Of a stretch of 64,000 nt of DNA, positions 9,650 to 26,196 are shown in pieces. The stretch is taken from assembly GCF_014204815.1 (NCBI RefSeq), contig NZ_JACHMC010000001.1, forward strand, positions 620,001 to 684,000. The letters run 5' to 3'. Every line of letters starts with the position of its first letter. The first letter of the stretch is position 1. A model generated the notes under the pieces. It was not told the origin of the DNA, ran no database searches, and saw only the letters and a program-made list of their open reading frames with translations. The position numbers were made by a program, and so were the translations under genes. This DNA is from Micrococcus flavus. Its GTDB lineage: Bacteria; Actinomycetota; Actinomycetes; Actinomycetales; Micrococcaceae.

Positions 9650-10191
9650 CAGGCCTCGGGGAGGCCGCAGACGTGGCCGTCCGGGTCCATGGGGTGGCCG
9701 CAGTCCGAGCACATCGGACGCCCGGCGTCCACGACCTCCCGGGTGCGCCGGGTGAACGCGCGGGCGGCGCCCACCGGCATCCGCACCAGCACCGCCTCGG
9801 ACTCCTGCTGGAGGAGCTGGTCGAACTCGTCCTCGACGAGAGGATGCACCTCCACGACCACCTGCGCCGTGCTGGGGTCCCAGCCGAGGCCGATGGCCCC
9901 GACCCGGAACCGCTCCTGCACGGGCTCCAACGGGTCGTTGTCCACGAGCTCGACGGGCGTACTGTCCGGGACGCTGTGGGGATTGCCGTCCAGGGCCATG
10001 AGCTCGTCGAGGATCTCGTCGATCTTCTCCGCCATGATGGCGGACTGCTCCTTCTCCAGGGCAACGCTCATCAGCCGCGACCCGGCTCGCACCTGCAGGT
10101 AGAACGTCCGGGCACCGGGGCGGCCGATCGTCCCGATGACCACTCGGTCCGGCCAGTCGAACTCATGGACATGGGCAGGCGCGTCACTCAT
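9649..10191 (-). CDS. DUF3090 family protein
   Basis: 180 residues, complete DUF3090 (Rv2134c-like) protein. It opens MSDAPAHVHEFDWPDRVVIG, is beta-rich in the middle (ARTFYLQVRAGSRLMSVALE) and ends in a small zinc-ribbon-like motif, MCSDCGHPMDPDGHVCGLPE, with three cysteines. Start ATG 10191 overlaps the end of the phosphomutase gene by four bases, and a TAGGAT hexamer lies 6 bases upstream, so it may also be transcribed alone as a leaderless message. Function unknown; always found beside the phosphomutase and SCO1664 genes. Confidence 0.85.
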   Translation of the reverse strand: MSDAPAHVHEFDWPDRVVIGTIGRPGARTFYLQVRAGSRLMSVALEKEQSAIMAEKIDEILDELMALDGNPHSVPDSTPVELVDNDPLEPVQERFRVGAIGLGWDPSTAQVVVEVHPLVEDEFDQLLQQESEAVLVRMPVGAARAFTRRTREVVDAGRPMCSDCGHPMDPDGHVCGLPEA

Positions 10192-10928
10192 GCGTCGATC
10201 CTAGGCGCCTGCCGGTCGCCGGCGTGGGTGCCCGCCGTCGTCGTCGGTGCGCCCGCCCCGCCGCCCACCGCGGCGTCGTCGGCCGGGGCGAGCGTCGCGA
10301 GCCAGGACAGGTCCCCGGCGTCGGTGTTGATGGCCAGGACGCGCGGCCGGCTGGGGCCGTAGCTCACGATGGACACGGAGGCGGGCCCCACCTCGAGCCG
10401 CTGGAACAGGTCCAGGTGCATGCCGAGCGCGTCGGCCAGGATCGACTTGATGACGTCCCCGTGGCTCACCGCCACCCACACCGCGCCCGGCCCGTGCTCG
10501 GCCTCGACCGCGGCGTCGTGCCGGCGGATCGCCGCCACCGCCCGGGCCTGCATCCCCGCCATGGACTCGCCGCCCGGGAAGACGACGGCGGACGGCTGGC
10601 TCTGCACCGTCGCCCATAGGGGCTCGGTGGCCAGGTCGCTGAGCTTCCGGCCCTGCCACTGGCCGTAGTCGCACTCGGTGAGATCGGCGTCGACCAGCGA
10701 GGGCGGCGCCGCCGGCTGGCGCTCGAGGATCGCGTGCGCGGTCTGCGCGCACCGCTCGAGGGGGCTGGCCACCACCGCGGCCACGGGCACGGCCGCGATC
10801 CGGTCCGCGGTGCGGGCCGCCTGGTCCCGGCCGTGGTCGTCCAGGCTGACCCCGGGGGTGCGGCCCGCCAGCAGTCCGGTCGCATTGGCCGTGGTGCGGC
10901 CGTGCCGCACGAGAAGTACCGTCGCCAT
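10188..10928 (-). CDS. Histidine phosphatase superfamily protein (MSMEG_4193/Rv2135c-like)
   Basis: 246-residue member of the phosphoglycerate-mutase-like histidine phosphatases. It carries the phosphate-accepting LLVRHGRTTANATGLLAGRT (His 9), SPLERCAQTA, the acidic ECDYGQWQGR and the second catalytic histidine in VAVSHGDVIKSILADALGMH. The last 35 residues are a disordered Gly/Thr-rich tail. ATG 10928 is preferred over the adjoining GTG 10931. It heads a three-gene operon with DUF3090 and SCO1664. The mycobacterial relative is a phosphatase; the true substrate is unknown. Confidence 0.8.
   Translation of the reverse strand: MATVLLVRHGRTTANATGLLAGRTPGVSLDDHGRDQAARTADRIAAVPVAAVVASPLERCAQTAHAILERQPAAPPSLVDADLTECDYGQWQGRKLSDLATEPLWATVQSQPSAVVFPGGESMAGMQARAVAAIRRHDAAVEAEHGPGAVWVAVSHGDVIKSILADALGMHLDLFQRLEVGPASVSIVSYGPSRPRVLAINTDAGDLSWLATLAPADDAAVGGGAGAPTTTAGTHAGDRQAPRIDA
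10198..10203 (-). promoter_or_regulatory. Possible internal -10 (TAGGAT) for DUF3090
   Basis: TAGGAT on the minus strand ends 6 bases before ATG 10191, inside the end of the phosphomutase gene. Confidence 0.4.
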
Positions 10929-10958
10929 CACTCCAGCCTAACGAAGGGGCTCCCCTGC

Positions 10959-10964
10959 CATACT
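10959..10964 (+). promoter_or_regulatory. Leaderless-type -10 (CATACT) of mntA
   Basis: CATACT ends 6 bases before ATG 10971; no ribosome site is present. Confidence 0.4.
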
Positions 10965-10970
10965 TGTCCC

Positions 10971-11279
10971 ATGACCATCACGCTGATGTTCGACCGTGCG
11001 GCCATCGCCCGCGCGGCACGGCAGCACGGTGTCGCTCGGCTGCAGGTCTTCGGCTCTGCTGCCGCGGGTGCGTTGCGGCCAAGCAGTGACGTCGACTTCC
11101 TCGTGGACTTCCTGCCCGGTCGGGCGGATGCCTTCGACGACTACACCGGACTGCAGCAGGAGCTCAGTCGGATCGTGAGTCGACCGGTGGACCTCGTGGT
11201 GCGCCGCGCCATCCGTAACCCCTACTTCCGGGCGAGCGCAGAGGAGCACGCGGAGGACGTCTATGTCCGGCAGGGGTGA
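10971..11279 (+). CDS. mntA: MntA-type minimal nucleotidyltransferase antitoxin
   Basis: 102-residue minimal nucleotidyltransferase. The signature G28-S29 with D40 and D42 (VFGSAAAGALRPSSDVDFLV) provides the metal and nucleotide site. In the MntA-HepT toxin-antitoxin system this enzyme AMPylates the toxin on a tyrosine near its active site and so silences it. The gene overlaps hepT by 17 bases. ATG 10971 fits a leaderless start; ATG 10986 in frame would leave the motif intact. GC is somewhat lower than in adjacent genes, in keeping with mobile accessory DNA. Confidence 0.8.
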   Translation: MTITLMFDRAAIARAARQHGVARLQVFGSAAAGALRPSSDVDFLVDFLPGRADAFDDYTGLQQELSRIVSRPVDLVVRRAIRNPYFRASAEEHAEDVYVRQG

Positions 11280-12257: not shown

Positions 12258-13913
12258 ATGACCGCCACCCTCGTCGCCTCCGCACTCGCCGGCGGCCATG
12301 GCCACCGCACGCTCTTCGACTCCCTCGACCTCACGGTCGCGCCGGGGGACGTCGTCGGCGTGGTGGGGGCCAACGGGGTGGGCAAGTCGACCCTGCTGCG
12401 CATCCTGGGCGGCGGCCTCGCCCCGCAGGCCGGCACGGTCAGCCTGGCCCCGGCGGACGCGTTCGTGGGCTGGCTGCCGCAGGAGCACGAGCGCGTGCCG
12501 GGGGAGACGGTGGCCGGGTACATCGCCCGCCGCACCGGCTGCGCCGCCGCGCAGGCGGAGATGGACGAGGCGGCCGAAGCCCTCGCGGATCCGGACGTCA
12601 CCGACGCCGCCGCGGACCGCTACAACGCCGCCCTCACCCGCTGGCTCGCCTCCGGCGCCGCGGACCTGGACGAGCGCGTCCCCCAGGTCCTCGCCGACCT
12701 CGGCCTGGACATGGACGGCGACGCCGCCCAGCGCACCCTCATGACGTCGCTGTCCGGCGGGCAGGCGGCCCGCGTCGGCCTCGCGGCGCTGCTGCTGTCC
12801 CGCTTCGACGTCGTGCTTCTGGACGAGCCCACCAACGACCTCGACCTGGACGGCCTCGAACGCCTGGAGGCCTTCGTGCAGGAGCTGCGCGGCGGCGTCG
12901 TGCTGGTGAGCCACGACCGCGAGTTCCTGGCCCGCTGCGTCACCCGCGTCCTGGAGCTCGACCTCGCCCAGCGCACCAACCGCGTCTACGGCGGCGGCTA
13001 CGAGGCCTACCTCGAGGAGCGGGCCACCCTGCGCCGCCAGGCCCGGGAGAAGTACGAAGAGTTCGCCGAGCAGAAGCAGGACCTCGTCTCCCGCGCCCGC
13101 ACCCAGCGGGAGTGGTCCAGCCAGGGCGTGCGCAACGCGATGAAGAAGTCCCCGGACAACGACAAGCTGCGCCGCAAGGCCAACAGTGAGTTGAGCGAGA
13201 AGCAGGCCCAGAAGGTCCGGCAGATGGAGAGCCGCATCGCGCGCCTGGAGGAGGTGGAGGAGCCGCGCAAGGAATGGAGGCTGGAGTTCACCATCGGTGC
13301 GGCGCCGCGCTCCAGCTCCGTGGTCGCCACCCTCAACGACGCCGTGTTCCGGCAGGGCGGCTTCACGCTCGGCCCGGTGTCCCTCCAGGTGAACGCGGGG
13401 GAGCGGATCGGCATCACCGGGCCCAACGGGGCCGGCAAGTCAACCCTGCTGCGCGGGCTGCTCGGCCGCCAGGCCCCGGACGAGGGCATGGCCGCCCTGA
13501 GGTCCAGCGTGCAGATCGGGGAGATCGACCAGGCGCGCTCGCTGCTGGTCGGGACCGTCCCGCTCGCCGCGGTCTTCGAGGCGCTCGTGCCCGAGATGGC
13601 CTCCGGGGAGGTGCGCACCCTGCTGGCCAAGTTCGGCCTCAGGGCCGACCACGTGAACCGCCCCGTGGACGAGCTCTCGCCCGGCGAGCGCACCCGCGCC
13701 GGGCTGGCCCTGCTGCAGGCCCGCGGCGTGAACGTGCTCGTCCTGGACGAGCCCACCAACCACCTGGACCTGGAGGCCATCGAGCAGCTGGAGCAGGCCC
13801 TGGAGACCTACGACGGCGCACTGCTGCTGGTCACCCACGATCGACGCATGCTGGACACCGTCCGTACCGACCGCCGCTGGCAGGTCCAGGACGGGCGGGT
13901 GACGGAGCGCTGA
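12258..13913 (+). CDS. ABC-F family ATP-binding protein (ribosome-associated)
   Basis: 551-residue soluble protein with two ABC ATPase domains and no membrane segments. First domain: Walker A GANGVGKST (37-45), signature LSGGQAARVGL, Walker B VVLLDEPTNDLDLDGLE. A charged linker with coiled-coil character (residues about 245-335, KYEEFAEQKQDLVSRARTQR) corresponds to the ABC-F P-site tRNA-interaction motif. Second domain: Walker A GPNGAGKST (388-396), a degenerate signature LSPGERTRAGL, and LVLDEPTNHLDLEAIEQ. ABC-F proteins rescue stalled or antibiotic-bound ribosomes. ATG 12258 has AGAGGAGA upstream. It is in frame with the broken glycosylase gene before it, but its own ribosome site argues for separate translation. 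Whether it confers resistance is unknown. Confidence 0.85.
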   Translation: MTATLVASALAGGHGHRTLFDSLDLTVAPGDVVGVVGANGVGKSTLLRILGGGLAPQAGTVSLAPADAFVGWLPQEHERVPGETVAGYIARRTGCAAAQAEMDEAAEALADPDVTDAAADRYNAALTRWLASGAADLDERVPQVLADLGLDMDGDAAQRTLMTSLSGGQAARVGLAALLLSRFDVVLLDEPTNDLDLDGLERLEAFVQELRGGVVLVSHDREFLARCVTRVLELDLAQRTNRVYGGGYEAYLEERATLRRQAREKYEEFAEQKQDLVSRARTQREWSSQGVRNAMKKSPDNDKLRRKANSELSEKQAQKVRQMESRIARLEEVEEPRKEWRLEFTIGAAPRSSSVVATLNDAVFRQGGFTLGPVSLQVNAGERIGITGPNGAGKSTLLRGLLGRQAPDEGMAALRSSVQIGEIDQARSLLVGTVPLAAVFEALVPEMASGEVRTLLAKFGLRADHVNRPVDELSPGERTRAGLALLQARGVNVLVLDEPTNHLDLEAIEQLEQALETYDGALLLVTHDRRMLDTVRTDRRWQVQDGRVTER

Positions 13914-14027
13914 TGTCCCGGGCACGGCGGCCGCGGCGTGAGGCTGGTGGGCACCGTCACCCTTGCCCGAGATTCGGTTGTGTACGACCATGAGAGTTCC
14001 GTCCCCACCAACGAAAGGGCCCCAGAC

Positions 14028-14711
14028 ATGTCCCGCATCCTGATGATCCTCACCTCGCACGACCAGCTGGGCGACACCGGCCGCAAGACCGGGTTCTGGC
14101 TCGAGGAGTTCGCCTCGCCCTACTACGTCTTCACGGACGCCGGCCATGAGGTCACCCTCGCCTCGCCCCGCGGCGGCCAGCCGCCCATCGACCCGACGAG
14201 CTCGAAGCCGGAGATGCAGACCGAGGCCACTCGCCGGTTCGACCAGGACGAGGAGGCCAAGGCCGCCCTGGCCCATACCACGCCCCTGGCCCAGGTGGAC
14301 GTGGACGGGTTCGACGCCGTCTTCTACCCGGGCGGTCACGGCCCGCTGTGGGACCTGGTGTCCGACGCCGACTCCACGCGGATCATCCTCGACAGTGACG
14401 CGGCCGGGCGCCCGCTCGGCCTCGTCTGCCACGCGCCCGGGATCCTGCACCCGATCACCGCCGCCGACGGCACCCCGTTCGTGCGCGGCCGTCAGGTCGC
14501 CGGCTTCACCAACGGCGAGGAGGACGCCGCCCAGCTGACGGACGTCGTCCCGTTCCTCGTCGAGGACTCGCTGATCGCCGCCGGCGCGGACTACCGCAAG
14601 GGCCCGGACGGGGAGAGCTTCGTGGTCACGGACGGCACCCTGGTGACCGGCCAGAACCCGGCCTCCTCCGCCGACACTGCCCGCCGCCTCCTGGACCTGC
14701 TCGCGCGCTGA
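14028..14711 (+). CDS. DJ-1/PfpI (Hsp31-like) family protein
   Basis: 227-residue class I glutamine-amidotransferase-fold protein of the Hsp31/glyoxalase III branch, which detoxifies methylglyoxal or protects proteins. It begins MSRILMILTSHDQLGDTGRK, has GFWLEEFASPYYVFTDAGHE with the conserved Glu, VFYPGGHGPLWDL, and the nucleophile elbow LVCHAPG with Cys 134. CGAAAGGG before ATG 14028 acts as the ribosome site. It is followed by a CurA-like reductase and a hydrolase, forming a plausible carbonyl/electrophile-stress cluster. Confidence 0.85.
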   Translation: MSRILMILTSHDQLGDTGRKTGFWLEEFASPYYVFTDAGHEVTLASPRGGQPPIDPTSSKPEMQTEATRRFDQDEEAKAALAHTTPLAQVDVDGFDAVFYPGGHGPLWDLVSDADSTRIILDSDAAGRPLGLVCHAPGILHPITAADGTPFVRGRQVAGFTNGEEDAAQLTDVVPFLVEDSLIAAGADYRKGPDGESFVVTDGTLVTGQNPASSADTARRLLDLLAR

Positions 14712-14752
14712 CTCTCCGCCGAGCCCGCCGTCCCGACCCCGAGGAGACCACG

Positions 14753-15763
14753 ATGAGCACCCCCACCCGCACGCGCGAGATCCACCTCGCCTCCCGCCCC
14801 CACGGCGCCCCGACGCCGGAGAACTTCCGTCTCACGGAGGTCGAGCTCCCCGAGCTCGCCGAGGGCCAGGTCCTCGTGCGCAACACCGTGATGTCCGTGG
14901 ACCCGTACATGCGCGGCCGCATGAACGACGTCGAGTCCTACGTGCCCCCGTTCCAGCTCGACGCCCCCCTCGACGGCGGCGCGGTGGGCACCGTGATCGC
15001 CTCGCGCCACGCGGACGTGCCGGAGGGCACGTCCGTGCTCCACGGCCTCGGCTGGCGCGAGCACGCCGTCCTCGACGGCGGCGCCGTCCAGGCCGTGGAC
15101 ACCTCCCAGTTCTCGGACAGCACCTACCTGGGCGTGCTGGGCATGACGGGTCTGACCGCCTACACCGGCCTCGTGCATGTGGCCGAGATGCAGGAGGGCG
15201 ACGCCGTGTTCATCTCGGGCGCCGCGGGGGCCGTCGGCTCGGTCGCCGGCCAGATCGCCCGCCTGCTGGGCGCCTCGCGCGTGATCGGCTCGGCGGGCAC
15301 GCCCGAGAAGGTGGCGCGGGTGAAGGAGCTGGGCTTCGACGCCGCGTTCGACTACCACGACGGCTCGCCCACCGATCTGCTGGCCGAGGCGGCGCCGGAG
15401 GGCATCGACGTCTACTTCGACAACGTGGGCGGCGACCACCTCGAGGCCGCCATCGCCGCCATGCGGGTCGACGGCCGCGTGGCGATGTGCGGCGCGATCG
15501 CCCAGTACAACTCGACGGAGCCGCCGGCCGCCCCGCGCAACCTCGCCCTGGCGATCGGCAAGCGACTGACCCTGCGCGGCTTCGTCCTGCAGAAGTACGC
15601 GTCGCAGGTCCGCCCCGAGTTCCTGGAGCGCGTGGGCCCGTGGGTCGCCGCCGGGACGATCCAGTGGGATGAGACCGTTCGGGAGGGTCTGGAGAACGCA
15701 CCCCAGGCGTTCATCGACCTGCTCGAGGGCGCCAACACGGGGAAGATGCTCGTCCGGCTGTGA
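14753..15763 (+). CDS. NADP-dependent oxidoreductase, CurA/MDR family
   Basis: 336-residue zinc-free medium-chain reductase resembling CurA and leukotriene B4 12-hydroxydehydrogenase, which reduce C=C bonds conjugated to carbonyls with NADPH. Motifs: SVDPYMRGRMND near the start, GMTGLTAYTGL, the NADP-binding FISGAAGAVGSVAGQIARLL and VDVYFDNVGGDHLEAAI. ATG 14753 follows GAGGAGA. The downstream hydrolase starts at or just after its stop, so they are co-transcribed. The natural substrate is unknown. Confidence 0.85.
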   Translation: MSTPTRTREIHLASRPHGAPTPENFRLTEVELPELAEGQVLVRNTVMSVDPYMRGRMNDVESYVPPFQLDAPLDGGAVGTVIASRHADVPEGTSVLHGLGWREHAVLDGGAVQAVDTSQFSDSTYLGVLGMTGLTAYTGLVHVAEMQEGDAVFISGAAGAVGSVAGQIARLLGASRVIGSAGTPEKVARVKELGFDAAFDYHDGSPTDLLAEAAPEGIDVYFDNVGGDHLEAAIAAMRVDGRVAMCGAIAQYNSTEPPAAPRNLALAIGKRLTLRGFVLQKYASQVRPEFLERVGPWVAAGTIQWDETVREGLENAPQAFIDLLEGANTGKMLVRL

Positions 15764-19671: not shown

Positions 19672-20481
19672 TCAGCGGGGCTCGTCGCCGCCGTCGTCGT
19701 CCGCCTCGATGGAGCGCACGACGCGCGGGGCCGTGATCAGCAGCAGCCCGCCCAGCATGTTCAGGGGGATGACCCACCACACCCAGCCCAGCCAGTCCAG
19801 GTAGGTGATGCCCTCGGCGCCGGACTGGATGGCGCCGAAGATGAGGATCGAGTCCATCACCGAGTGGAACAGCGAGCCGCCCGCCAGGACGACGGCGCCC
19901 GCCACCGAGGCGGCGATCGTGGCGCCGTCGCTGTCCGTCCCGGCCTGCATGCGGGTCATCAGCGTGATGGCCGTGCCCGCCAGGACCGCCAGCGCCGCCC
20001 CCTGCCAGCTGAACCCGATGTCCAGGAAATGGCGCGCCGACGTCGCCATGGTCTCGTGGAGCTTGGGGAAGGCCACCGTGACCAGCCCGATGGTCACCCA
20101 CCCGCCCACCAGGTTGGTCAGCAGCGTCATGGACCACAGTCGCACGAGCTCCAGCATCGTGCCCCGGCCGGTGGTCACGGCCTTGATGGGGTAATAGAAG
20201 CCCTCGGTGAAGAGCTCCGAGTGCGCCAGGAAGAGCGCCACGAAGCCGATGGAGAAGGCCAGGCCGGCCAGCAGGTGGCTGTCCGTCTCGTGGAGGGTGA
20301 GCAGGTAGGCCAGCAGGCCGATGGTGATCTCCACGCCGCCGAGGAACCCGGTGGCCAGGAGCACGGGCCAGGAGCGGTGCAGGCGCTCCTCACCCTCCTG
20401 GACGGCCTCGTGGTGTGCCTTCTCGATGGGCTCTTCGACGTCCGTGTCCTGCCGGCCGTGGTCCGCGTGCTGCTCGCTCAT
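19672..20481 (-). CDS. Formate/nitrite transporter (FNT) family membrane protein
   Basis: 269-residue channel-type transporter for small monovalent anions. Six hydrophobic segments follow a charged N terminus (EKAHHEAVQEGEERLHRSWP). Motifs include GFLGGVEITIGLLAY, LFLAHSELFTEGFYYPI, LLTNLVGGWVTIG and HSVMDSILIFG, which align with FocA/NirC-like helices. ATG 20481 is chosen; the frame extends to 20574 but that part would overlap the divergent Mug gene. Ends convergently 4 bases from the saccharopine-type gene. Formate, nitrite or another anion cannot be distinguished, though a copper nitrite reductase occurs 3 kb away. Confidence 0.75.
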   Translation of the reverse strand: MSEQHADHGRQDTDVEEPIEKAHHEAVQEGEERLHRSWPVLLATGFLGGVEITIGLLAYLLTLHETDSHLLAGLAFSIGFVALFLAHSELFTEGFYYPIKAVTTGRGTMLELVRLWSMTLLTNLVGGWVTIGLVTVAFPKLHETMATSARHFLDIGFSWQGAALAVLAGTAITLMTRMQAGTDSDGATIAASVAGAVVLAGGSLFHSVMDSILIFGAIQSGAEGITYLDWLGWVWWVIPLNMLGGLLLITAPRVVRSIEADDDGGDEPR

Positions 20482-20560
20482 CGGCCGATCATCCCACGCC
20501 GGCACTGCATGGGCCGGACGGCTGGGGCTGTAGACCCGATCTCGTGTCTCCGAAGCCATA

Positions 20561-20566
20561 TAGCCT
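20561..20566 (+). promoter_or_regulatory. Leaderless-type -10 (TAGCCT) of the intact Mug gene
   Basis: TAGCCT ends 6 bases before ATG 20573. Confidence 0.5.
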
Positions 20567-20572
20567 CCACCC

Positions 20573-21139
20573 ATGGGTTACACGCAGGCGGAACTCCAGG
20601 CGTACCGGGACGCGACCGTCCCCGACCTCCTGCCGGACCCGCTGCGGCTGCTGTTCATCGGCATCAACCCGAGCCTGTGGTCCGCCGCCACCGGGGCGCA
20701 CTTCGGCCGCCCCGGCAACCGCTTCTACCCGGCCCTGCACCGCGCCGGCCTGACCCGGCACCTCCTGGACGCCTCCGCGGGGTACCGGCCGCAGGACCAC
20801 GCAGAACTCCACGAGCGCGGCATCGGGATCTCCAACCTCGTCCCGCGGGCCACCGCCCGGGCGGACGAGCTGACCCGTCAGGAGCTCAAGGCCGCCCCCG
20901 CGCGCCTGGACGCGATCGTGGCGGAGCACGCGCCCGCCGTCGTCGCGGTGCTGGGGGTGGGTCCCTACCGGCTGGCCACCGGCCAGCGCCGGGCGCAGGT
21001 CGGCGAGCAGGAGTCGCCATGGCCGGGCACCCGGCTGTTCGTGGCGCACAACCCCAGCGGCCTCAACGCGCACGCCACCGTGGACTCGCTGGGGGAGCAG
21101 TACCGCGAGATCGGACGGGCCGCGGGGATCGTCGACTGA
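20573..21139 (+). CDS. Mug/TDG-family mismatch-specific DNA glycosylase (intact copy)
   Basis: 188-residue uracil-DNA-glycosylase superfamily member that removes U or T from G:U/G:T mispairs. GINPSLWSAATGAHFGRPGN carries the active-site Asn, and NPSGLNAHATVDSLGEQYRE is the DNA-intercalation motif that is destroyed in the copy at 11616. It starts leaderless at ATG 20573. The two copies lie 9 kb apart on the same strand; this one appears functional and may explain why loss of the other is tolerated. Confidence 0.85.
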   Translation: MGYTQAELQAYRDATVPDLLPDPLRLLFIGINPSLWSAATGAHFGRPGNRFYPALHRAGLTRHLLDASAGYRPQDHAELHERGIGISNLVPRATARADELTRQELKAAPARLDAIVAEHAPAVVAVLGVGPYRLATGQRRAQVGEQESPWPGTRLFVAHNPSGLNAHATVDSLGEQYREIGRAAGIVD

Positions 21140-23481: not shown

Positions 23482-26196
23482 GTGACCGACCCCAGCCCTG
23501 CCCCGCACCCGCCCGTCGGCGGCGCACCGGGAGGCCGCCCGCCCGGCCGTCCCCGCCGCAGCCCCCTGCGCGATTACACCGTCGTGCTGTGGTTCGTGGC
23601 CGCCGCCGTCGTCTCCCTGGTCCACCGCTGGGTGCCGGAGTCCACGTGGTTCATGGTCCACCTGGTGGTCCTCGGCGCGCTCACGCACTCGATGCTCGTG
23701 TGGAGCCGCCACTTCTCCCGCGCCCTGCTGAAGACCCGCCACGACGGGCGGGACGACCGCCGCCAGAACGCCCGCCTGCTCACGCTGCTGGTCGGCTCCG
23801 TCGCCGTGTTCGTCGGCGTCCCCACCTCCACCTGGCCGCTCGTCGTGGCGGGCGGGGCCGTCGTCGCGGCGGCGGTGCTCTGGCACGGCGCGAGCCTGCT
23901 GGCCCAGCTGCGCCGCGCCCTGCCCGGCCGGTTCCGCGGGACCATCCGCTACTACCTCGCCGCCGCGGCGTGGCTGCCCGTGGGCGTGACCTTCGGCGTG
24001 CTGCTGGCCCGGGGGCTGGGGGAGCAGTGGCACGCCCGCCTCCTCGTGGCGCACACGCTGACCATGCTCCTGGGCTGGGTGGGCCTGACGGTCGTCGGCA
24101 CGCTCGTGACGTTCTGGCCCACGGTCCTGCGTGCCCGCATGGACGACCGCGCCGAGGGCGCCGCTGCCCGGGTGTTCGTGCCGCTGAACGTGGCCGTCGC
24201 CGTGATCGCGGCCGCCGCGCTCGCGGGCTGGACCGCCGTGGCCGTGACCGCGCTGGCGGTCTACCTCGTCCTGGTGCTGTGGTGGGGCCGCACCCTGCTC
24301 GCGCCGCTGCGCGCCAAGCCGCCGCGCGAGTTCGCGCCCGCCTCGATCGGCGCGGCCCTGGTCTGGTTCGTGGTCGCCGCCGCCCTGACGGGCTGGCTCG
24401 TGCTGACCTCCGACGACGGCTCGATCGCCCGGAACTACCCGGGCCTGGCCGTCTTCTGGGTGGGCGGATTCGTCCTCCAGCTGCTCACGGGCGCCCTGAG
24501 CTACCTGCTGCCCGCGGCCATCGGCGGCGGGCCCCGCGTCGTCCGCGCCTCGGCCCGCTGGTTCGACCGCTTCGCCGCGCTGCGCCTCACCGTGATCAAC
24601 GGCGGCCTGCTGCTGTGGCTGCTGCCGCTGCCCAGCTGGGCGCGCGTGGTCCTCTCCTCCACGGTGATGCTCGCGTTCCTCGCGTTCGTCCTGCTCATGG
24701 TCCGGGGCATCCGCGCCGCCGTCGCCGAGCGCCGGCGGGCCGCGGCGGGGGAGCCGGCCGCCGCGTTCGAGCGGCCCCGCGCCCTCACCCGCGCGGGGCT
24801 CACGTCCGGCATCGCCGTGCTGGCGGTGGCGACCGCGCTCGGCCTCGCCGTCGCGCAGACGCTGGGCGCGTCCGGCGCCGCGGAGACGGGGACGAGCTCC
24901 GCCGTCGCCGCGACGGGCGAGACCGTGGAGGTGACCGTCCAGGCGAAGGACATGCGGTTCCTCCCGGACACCATCCACGCCGACGCCGGGGACCGCGTGG
25001 TCGTGACCGTGGAGAACGCGGACCCGGAGATGGTCCACGACCTCACCATCGCGGGCCAGACCACCCCGCGCCTGGACCCCGGTCAGTCCGCCGTGCTCGA
25101 CCTCGGCGTGGTCGGCGCGTCCACGCAGGGGTGGTGCAGCATCGTCGGCCACCGGCAGCAGGGGATGGTGCTCGACCTCGTCGTCGCGGGCGCGGAGGGC
25201 GACGACGCCGGCCACGGCGCCCACCACGCGGCGGACGACCCGGCCGCGGACCCCGCCGCCGCGCGGACCGCCTACGACCCGCAGACCCCGCTCACCCGCA
25301 CGGTGGACGCGACCGCGCCGGAGACCCCCGCGGAGGTCGACCACCGATTCACCATCACCACCCGCGACGAGGACGTGGAGGTCGCCCCGGGCGTGTGGCA
25401 GACGCGCTGGCCGTTCGAGGGCGGTCCCGACGGCGCCCCCGACCCCGGCGGCAGCCTCGGCCCCACGATCCGCGGCAAGGTGGGCGACACCTTCGAGGTG
25501 ACGTTCGTGAACGAGGGCACGATGGCCCACTCGATCGACTTCCATGCCTCAGAGGTGGCCCCGGACGAGGCCATGCGCAGCATCGCCCCGGGCGAGCGCC
25601 TCGTCTACCGGTTCACGGCGAACCGCTCCGGGGCGTGGCTGTACCACTGCGGCACCATGCCCATGACCGCGCACATCGCCGCCGGCATGCACGGCGCGGT
25701 GATCATCGACCCGCCGGACCTCGAGCCCGTGGACCGCGAGTACGTGCTCGTGCAGTCCGAGGTCTATGTGCAGCCCGGCACAGGAGAGTCGGCCGACGCC
25801 GCCGCGCCCGTGGACGCCGCCGGCGCCCAGACCTGGGACCCGGACATGGTGGTGTGGAACGGGATCGCGGACCAATACGCGCAACGTCCGCTGACCGCGC
25901 GCACCGGCGAGCGCGTGCGCTTCTGGGTGGTGGCGGCCGGCCCGAACCAGGGCACGAGCTTCCACATCGTGGGCGCGCAGTTCGACACGGTCTACGCCGA
26001 GGGTGCCTACCGCCTCCGGCGGGGCCGGGACGCCTTCGGCACCGAGAACGGCGGGGCACAGGCGCTCGACGTCGCCGTCGCGCAGGGCGGCTTCGTCGAG
26101 ACCGTGTTCGCCGAGCCGGGGCACTACGTGATGGTGGACCACGCCATGGTCAACGCCGAGCGCGGTGCCCGGGGGATCGTGGCCGTCACGGACTGA
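23482..26196 (+). CDS. Membrane-anchored fusion: multi-helix membrane module + cupredoxin + copper nitrite reductase (NirK-type)
   Basis: 904 residues. Residues about 28-440 form roughly a dozen membrane helices with histidines (THSMLVWSRHFSRAL, VAHTLTMLLGWVGL), similar to NnrS/heme-copper-oxidase-like modules. A cupredoxin follows with a full type-1 copper set His 519, Cys 552, His 557, Met 562. The C-terminal two-domain copper oxidase has type-1 ligands His 683, Cys 723, His 731, Met 736 and type-2 ligands His 688, His 722, His 828, as in NirK, which reduces nitrite to nitric oxide outside the membrane. The cupredoxin probably delivers electrons. GTG 23482 has no ribosome site and may depend on the upstream ORF. 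The family call rests on the ligand spacing. Confidence 0.8.
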   Translation: MTDPSPAPHPPVGGAPGGRPPGRPRRSPLRDYTVVLWFVAAAVVSLVHRWVPESTWFMVHLVVLGALTHSMLVWSRHFSRALLKTRHDGRDDRRQNARLLTLLVGSVAVFVGVPTSTWPLVVAGGAVVAAAVLWHGASLLAQLRRALPGRFRGTIRYYLAAAAWLPVGVTFGVLLARGLGEQWHARLLVAHTLTMLLGWVGLTVVGTLVTFWPTVLRARMDDRAEGAAARVFVPLNVAVAVIAAAALAGWTAVAVTALAVYLVLVLWWGRTLLAPLRAKPPREFAPASIGAALVWFVVAAALTGWLVLTSDDGSIARNYPGLAVFWVGGFVLQLLTGALSYLLPAAIGGGPRVVRASARWFDRFAALRLTVINGGLLLWLLPLPSWARVVLSSTVMLAFLAFVLLMVRGIRAAVAERRRAAAGEPAAAFERPRALTRAGLTSGIAVLAVATALGLAVAQTLGASGAAETGTSSAVAATGETVEVTVQAKDMRFLPDTIHADAGDRVVVTVENADPEMVHDLTIAGQTTPRLDPGQSAVLDLGVVGASTQGWCSIVGHRQQGMVLDLVVAGAEGDDAGHGAHHAADDPAADPAAARTAYDPQTPLTRTVDATAPETPAEVDHRFTITTRDEDVEVAPGVWQTRWPFEGGPDGAPDPGGSLGPTIRGKVGDTFEVTFVNEGTMAHSIDFHASEVAPDEAMRSIAPGERLVYRFTANRSGAWLYHCGTMPMTAHIAAGMHGAVIIDPPDLEPVDREYVLVQSEVYVQPGTGESADAAAPVDAAGAQTWDPDMVVWNGIADQYAQRPLTARTGERVRFWVVAAGPNQGTSFHIVGAQFDTVYAEGAYRLRRGRDAFGTENGGAQALDVAVAQGGFVETVFAEPGHYVMVDHAMVNAERGARGIVAVTD

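Follow-up and report, generated by a model that had tools for sequence, protein, structure and literature searches.

Results

Layout of the fusion gene

In the window, which is the whole 64-kb stretch of DNA that was analysed, a nirK fusion gene lies downstream of a divergent gene of the formate/nitrite transporter family. The positions of both genes, and of the domains and histidine codons of the fusion, are presented in Table 1. The reading frame of the fusion was the sole good match in its own genome (2.55 Mb, two contigs). Relatives of the same layout aligned over nearly the full length with 41-65% identity (42-row alignment), which rules out a chance open reading frame.

Table 1. Positions of the genes, domains and conserved histidine codons in the window
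Feature	Positions	Strand	Remarks
Formate/nitrite transporter family gene	19672..20574	-	PF01226, E 3.6e-31; about 3 kb upstream of nirK, divergent
nirK fusion gene	23482..26196	+	GTG start; 904 aa; single uninterrupted frame to the stop at 26196
Twelve-helix membrane module, residues 29-421	23566..24744	+	Predicted heme-copper-oxidase subunit I fold
Codon of H60, TM2	23659..23661	+	Invariant in 83/83 module relatives; candidate heme/Cu ligand
Codon of H135, TM4	23884..23886	+	46/51 of the actinomycete fused/split NirK group; absent from the stand-alone modules of other lineages
Codon of H191, TM6	24052..24054	+	Invariant in 83/83 module relatives; candidate heme/Cu ligand
Helix 13, residues 437-468	24790..24885	+	Anchors the domains that lie outside
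Type-1 Cu cupredoxin, residues ~478-570	24913..25191	+	PF13473; ligands H519, C552, H557, M562
NirK, residues 602-904	25285..26193	+	TIGR02376, E 3.9e-45 (below the curated cut-off); matches to PDB NirK

From the N-terminus, the protein consists of a disordered stretch (residues 1-22), the membrane module, a cytoplasmic linker, a single helix, the cupredoxin and NirK. The full-length AlphaFold2 model, calculated from 42 full-length sequences, resulted in a mean pLDDT of 88.7 and a pTM of 0.63, values which make the domains confident and do not fix their mutual arrangement. The segments 1-22, 465-473 and 573-595 were disordered or of low confidence. The first-pass annotation of this DNA had placed a membrane part, a full cupredoxin domain and an intact NirK in one chain, and the single frame of the gene agrees with this. 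Its count of about 12 membrane helices is corrected to 13, with 12 in the module and a separate one carrying the copper domains. With the N-terminus inside, 29 Lys/Arg residues in and near the loops were predicted on the inner side vs 3 on the outer side, which places the cupredoxin-NirK part outside. The predicted topology is thus one of external copper domains and an internal N-terminus.

Copper sites of the cupredoxin and NirK

All four cupredoxin ligands were invariant in 42/42 rows of the alignment. In the case of the type-1 site of NirK, H683, C723 and H731 were invariant, and M736 was conserved in at least 90% of the rows. Both type-1 sets had been assigned correctly before. The type-2 Cu ligands are H688, H722 and H887 (MVDHAM), all of them invariant; the earlier assignment had included the first two but named H828 as the third. 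The alignment to Geobacillus NirK identifies H828 of the SSFHV/TSFHIV motif as the catalytic His, which together with D686, the other catalytic residue, was invariant in the same 42 rows.

The score of the window protein with the equivalog model TIGR02376 was 154.6 bits, below the cut-off of 296.3 bits. The cut-off was passed by 5 of the 110 matching actinobacterial genomes, and as low scores are common to nearly all actinobacterial matches, they refer to a limit of the model and not of the protein.

In comparison with known structures, the tandem cupredoxin-NirK part (query residues 496-901) aligned with the two-part NirK of Hyphomicrobium denitrificans (2dv6) with an E-value of 2.6e-33. Unlike the window protein, the Hyphomicrobium enzyme has no membrane module.

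Fold and conserved histidines of the membrane module

No Pfam or NCBIfam family reached its cut-off with the module in the window protein. Structure prediction, which had been proposed in the first-pass annotation, was conducted with 51 module sequences and resulted in an AlphaFold2 model with a pLDDT of 95.5 and a pTM of 0.93. In the Foldseek search of this model against the PDB, the first 34 matches consisted solely of heme-copper oxidases and qNOR (probability 0.98-1.00), including ba3, bo3 and aa3 oxidases, and no other fold ranked before them. The best E-value was 1.4e-3 and the TM-score reached 0.66 by query length; as all the E-values exceeded 0.001, the result is a match of fold and not of a close relative. 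The internal similarity of the module at a lag of ~130 residues is in keeping with the three repeats that make up such a fold. Pfam COX1 matches were obtained with 5 of the 51 module members (best E 2.6e-4), the window protein not being among them. On the strength of the model, the module is predicted with high confidence to have the fold of heme-copper-oxidase subunit I.

Profile searches with the module against PDB sequences gave no oxidase match, only chance matches to SemiSWEET, and against aa3 oxidases nothing significant, the direct and the duplicated profiles both staying within the reversed controls. The relation to the oxidases is therefore visible by fold alone.

The module alignment comprised 83 sequences: 51 fused or NirK-linked, 18 stand-alone actinobacterial and 14 from Pseudomonadota. 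H60 and H191 were the only histidines invariant across all of them; besides these, conservation extended to over a dozen positions. H48 and H135 are hallmarks of the actinomycete NirK group alone. The predicted arrangement of twelve helices with histidines in TM2 and TM6 is shared with subunit I of the heme-copper oxidases and NO reductases (ba3, bo3, aa3, qNOR). In contrast to these enzymes, the module has no conserved His pairs at the helices of the binuclear-site ligands (TM7 HH and TM10 HxH), hence neither a binuclear centre nor the canonical low-spin heme pair, as the usual TM2-TM10 bis-His heme is unavailable to it.

The module as a separate family and its linkage with NirK

Genes that encode the module alone (~380-440 aa) were found in other classes of actinobacteria and, with greater divergence, in Pseudomonadota. 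The stand-alone members tested had no meaningful Pfam or NCBIfam match. A search for the N-terminal part as a separate family, CcoN- or NnrS-like, had been suggested in the first-pass annotation, and the guess behind it was borne out by the oxidase fold, these stand-alone homologues and the linkage with NirK described below.

Among 396 genomes of Actinomycetota, searched with thresholds of E <= 1e-5 for the module and about 1e-38 for NirK, both were detected in 40, NirK only in 12, the module only in 15 and neither in 329. When the genomes with fused genes were excluded, the corresponding numbers were 32, 12, 14 and 329. The Fisher p values of 1e-31 (all genomes) and 5e-26 (unfused only) are indicative and overstate the case, since genomes that are related do not count as independent observations; the direction of the association is nevertheless plain. 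Even as unfused genes, the module and NirK of Actinomycetota are found together much more often than chance would give.

The unfused genes lay side by side in 7 genomes. Split adjacent versions were detected in Catellatospora, Scrofimicrobium and Corynebacterium, in the last also on opposite strands. One Corynebacterium locus (L052) carries two module copies, at 9701-11005 and 13287-14936, around nirK; one overlaps the nirK start and the other lies downstream on the opposite strand. Locus L051 is similar.

The 14 stand-alone modules of Pseudomonadota examined in their context kept both histidines and had no NirK within ~6 kb. The genomes of Pseudomonadota with a strong stand-alone module match were absent from the NirK list, and none of the conserved neighbours had an evident link to nitrogen oxides. 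One stand-alone module gene adjoins a gene of a cupredoxin and multicopper oxidase instead of NirK (L134:6851-9797). The module profile also matched short membrane proteins of ~155-180 aa with the motif HAHINLLGW, which occur in many Pseudomonadota (L166-L171, e.g. L170:2703-3170 and L167:2487-3023). Apparently, these are single four-helix repeats of the oxidase fold; their association with NirK genomes was mild (17/45 vs 39/254).

Genes surrounding the fusion

In 26 of the ~44 loci with enough upstream DNA, an NnrS-like membrane protein of ~390 aa is encoded directly upstream of the fusion, its gene touching the fusion or nearly so (L031-L033, L036-L043, L048 and others, e.g. L037:8817-9989). 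The protein was not named by Pfam at E 1e-4. In the hhalign comparison, its profile aligned collinearly with NnrS with a probability of 96% (P 1.8e-9; reversed controls 0.2-0.4%), and it retains the histidines at the start of TM2 and TM10. Often, a gene of an HTH regulator with conserved Cys/His residues lies upstream of the NnrS-like gene, and relatives of this regulator were detected also near stand-alone modules. The regulators are of the HTH_20/ArsR type with a C-terminal CP...VC..HLGL motif (L048:8218-8838, L036:7981-8865, L143:8014-8790, L145:5220-6260) and may be metal/Fe-S or NO sensors. In the window itself, neither the NnrS-like gene nor the regulator was found with tblastn (E 1e-3).

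In two Cryobacterium, qNOR is encoded directly downstream of the fusion. The formate/nitrite transporter gene of the window was not found beside the relatives of the fusion. In Intrasporangium calvum, the locus tag of focA (Intca_17150) is near that of nirK (Intca_17170) (PMC6349771). By comparison of coordinates, the genes of NirK and NnrS are neighbours in several Pseudomonadota.

Comparison of the module with NnrS

NnrS is a membrane protein that contains heme and copper. It is similar in size to the module and is likewise found with NirK, and the similarity between the two profiles is weak and permuted. With the NnrS family model PF05940, the best E-value among the 51 module members searched was 0.42, obtained with one member. 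NnrS has its histidines in TM2 (HAHEM) and TM10, whereas those of the module are in TM2 and TM6, and the TM10 His and the HAHEM pair have no counterparts at collinear positions of the module. The two arrangements are equivalent only if permuted.

The best register between the profiles was circularly permuted by one repeat, TM1-TM8 of the module being aligned with TM9-TM12 followed by TM1-TM4 of NnrS. With the broad profile, the score of the permuted register was 48.1 (probability 63%), in comparison with 39.2 for the collinear register and 22.7 (probability 0.6%) for the reversed control. In the comparison with the NnrS-like neighbour, too, the permuted register came first (80.6%, 241 columns). 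In this register, H60 and H191 align with the TM10 and TM2 histidines of NnrS, respectively. The permutation is a lead and not a result, because the repeats of the fold let any register score somewhat.

Discussion

Judged by its sequence, the fusion is very probably a membrane-integrated, NO-forming copper nitrite reductase that catalyses the reduction of nitrite. The layout itself is not new, although enzymes of this kind have been studied little. The passages of PMC4770552 on actinobacterial NirK, citing Ellis et al. 2007, describe enzymes of ~900 aa from Propionibacterium acnes and similar organisms with the same order of a ~400-aa membrane domain, a CX4HX4M cupredoxin and NirK. The first-pass annotation had allowed for an already characterised variant; this is correct for the architecture but not for the membrane domain, which is called "of unknown function" in those passages and is given there neither fold, family nor stand-alone gene. 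No paper identifying the domain was found in the open-access literature. The present analysis adds a predicted fold, a family and a genomic association for the membrane module.

The layout, ligands, fold, topology, co-occurrence and conserved gene order were obtained by computation, and a mechanism can be proposed on this basis. With its ligands and catalytic residues intact, the C-terminal NirK would convert nitrite on the outside into NO through the usual T1-T2 copper mechanism, and the cupredoxin would serve as a tethered type-1 copper relay. The module, with a predicted heme-copper-oxidase fold and without the O2/NO-reducing binuclear centre, would most likely hold heme b or Cu at H60 and H191 near the outer face and pass electrons to the cupredoxin from menaquinol or the bc complex. 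If the module feeds the cupredoxin in this way, a freely diffusing donor would be unnecessary. The supply of membrane electrons to the NirK head by the module and the cupredoxin is considered the most likely role, although it is proposed tentatively. Against it stand the missing TM7 and TM10 ligands and the modules of Pseudomonadota without an adjacent NirK. In addition, the N-terminal cupredoxin of the Hyphomicrobium enzyme was reported to lie at too great a distance from the core to transfer electrons effectively (PMC4770552), and a soluble donor via bc1 was assumed by the authors of the I. calvum study (PMC6349771).

As the main rival, the module could be an NnrS-like partner of the NO-producing enzyme that handles copper, heme or NO, whether by loading cofactors, by binding NO or by protection, the cupredoxin being fed by the bcc complex or a small carrier. 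This possibility is only slightly less likely than the electron supply. It agrees with the frequent NnrS-like gene directly upstream of the fusion, with the neighbouring NirK and NnrS genes of Pseudomonadota, with the resemblance of the module to NnrS in the permuted register, well above the reversed control, and with the module gene that adjoins a multicopper oxidase and not NirK. However, the similarity of the module itself to NnrS is weak, and an electron relay is suggested by the invariant type-1 cupredoxin that lies between the module and NirK. As their genes occur together, the same role for the NnrS-like protein and the module is disfavoured.

In a more specific form of the electron-supply role, the module would be a new branch of the heme-copper-oxidase fold acting as a quinol:cupredoxin oxidoreductase, permuted with respect to NnrS by one four-helix repeat and with its pocket between TM2 and TM6 (TM10 and TM2 in NnrS). 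Fused or unfused, it would then form a self-contained menaquinol:nitrite reductase of actinobacteria. This proposal is unlikely.

It is improbable that the module is a mere membrane anchor, by which a cell lacking an outer membrane would retain the nitrite reductase at its surface. Helix 13 does run straight into the external copper domains, and actinobacterial NirKs without the membrane domain exist (PMC4770552), which makes the module dispensable for the enzyme as such. On the other hand, one helix would be enough for anchoring, the conservation of two histidines and over a dozen further positions in 83 sequences would not be expected of an anchor, and the module exists also as an unfused gene co-occurring with NirK. 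That the protein is another multicopper oxidase and not a nitrite reductase, as its low TIGR02376 score might suggest, is very improbable, considering that the protein has every T1, T2 and catalytic residue of NirK and that these are conserved, that nearly all the actinobacterial matches score below the cut-off and that nirK transcripts rise with nitrite in I. calvum, the end product of which is N2O (PMC6349771); the fusion of another strain of this species (L033) is 47% identical to the window protein.

In the host genome, a single COX1-family gene was detected with a score typical of aa3 oxidases, and thus no NorB or qNOR was seen. NarG was absent, as was NnrS by PF05940, a model that might miss the upstream NnrS-like type anyway. 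The host may make NO as an end product from imported or external nitrite. The fusion was found in none of the ten genomes of the same genus that were searched, and its best relative was from Propioniferax (65% identity), both of which refer to a possible horizontal gain of the gene.

The literature found does not settle from where NirK of Gram-positive bacteria receives its electrons. If they come from the module, nitrite could be reduced without the bc complex, and actinobacterial denitrification, which is a source of NO and N2O, would have a different energy yield. The stand-alone family, which is absent from Pfam and NCBIfam, provides a testable handle, as the same module occurs with and without NirK. 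According to its predicted fold, the family would also widen the range of the heme-copper-oxidase fold to include proteins that lack the catalytic centre.
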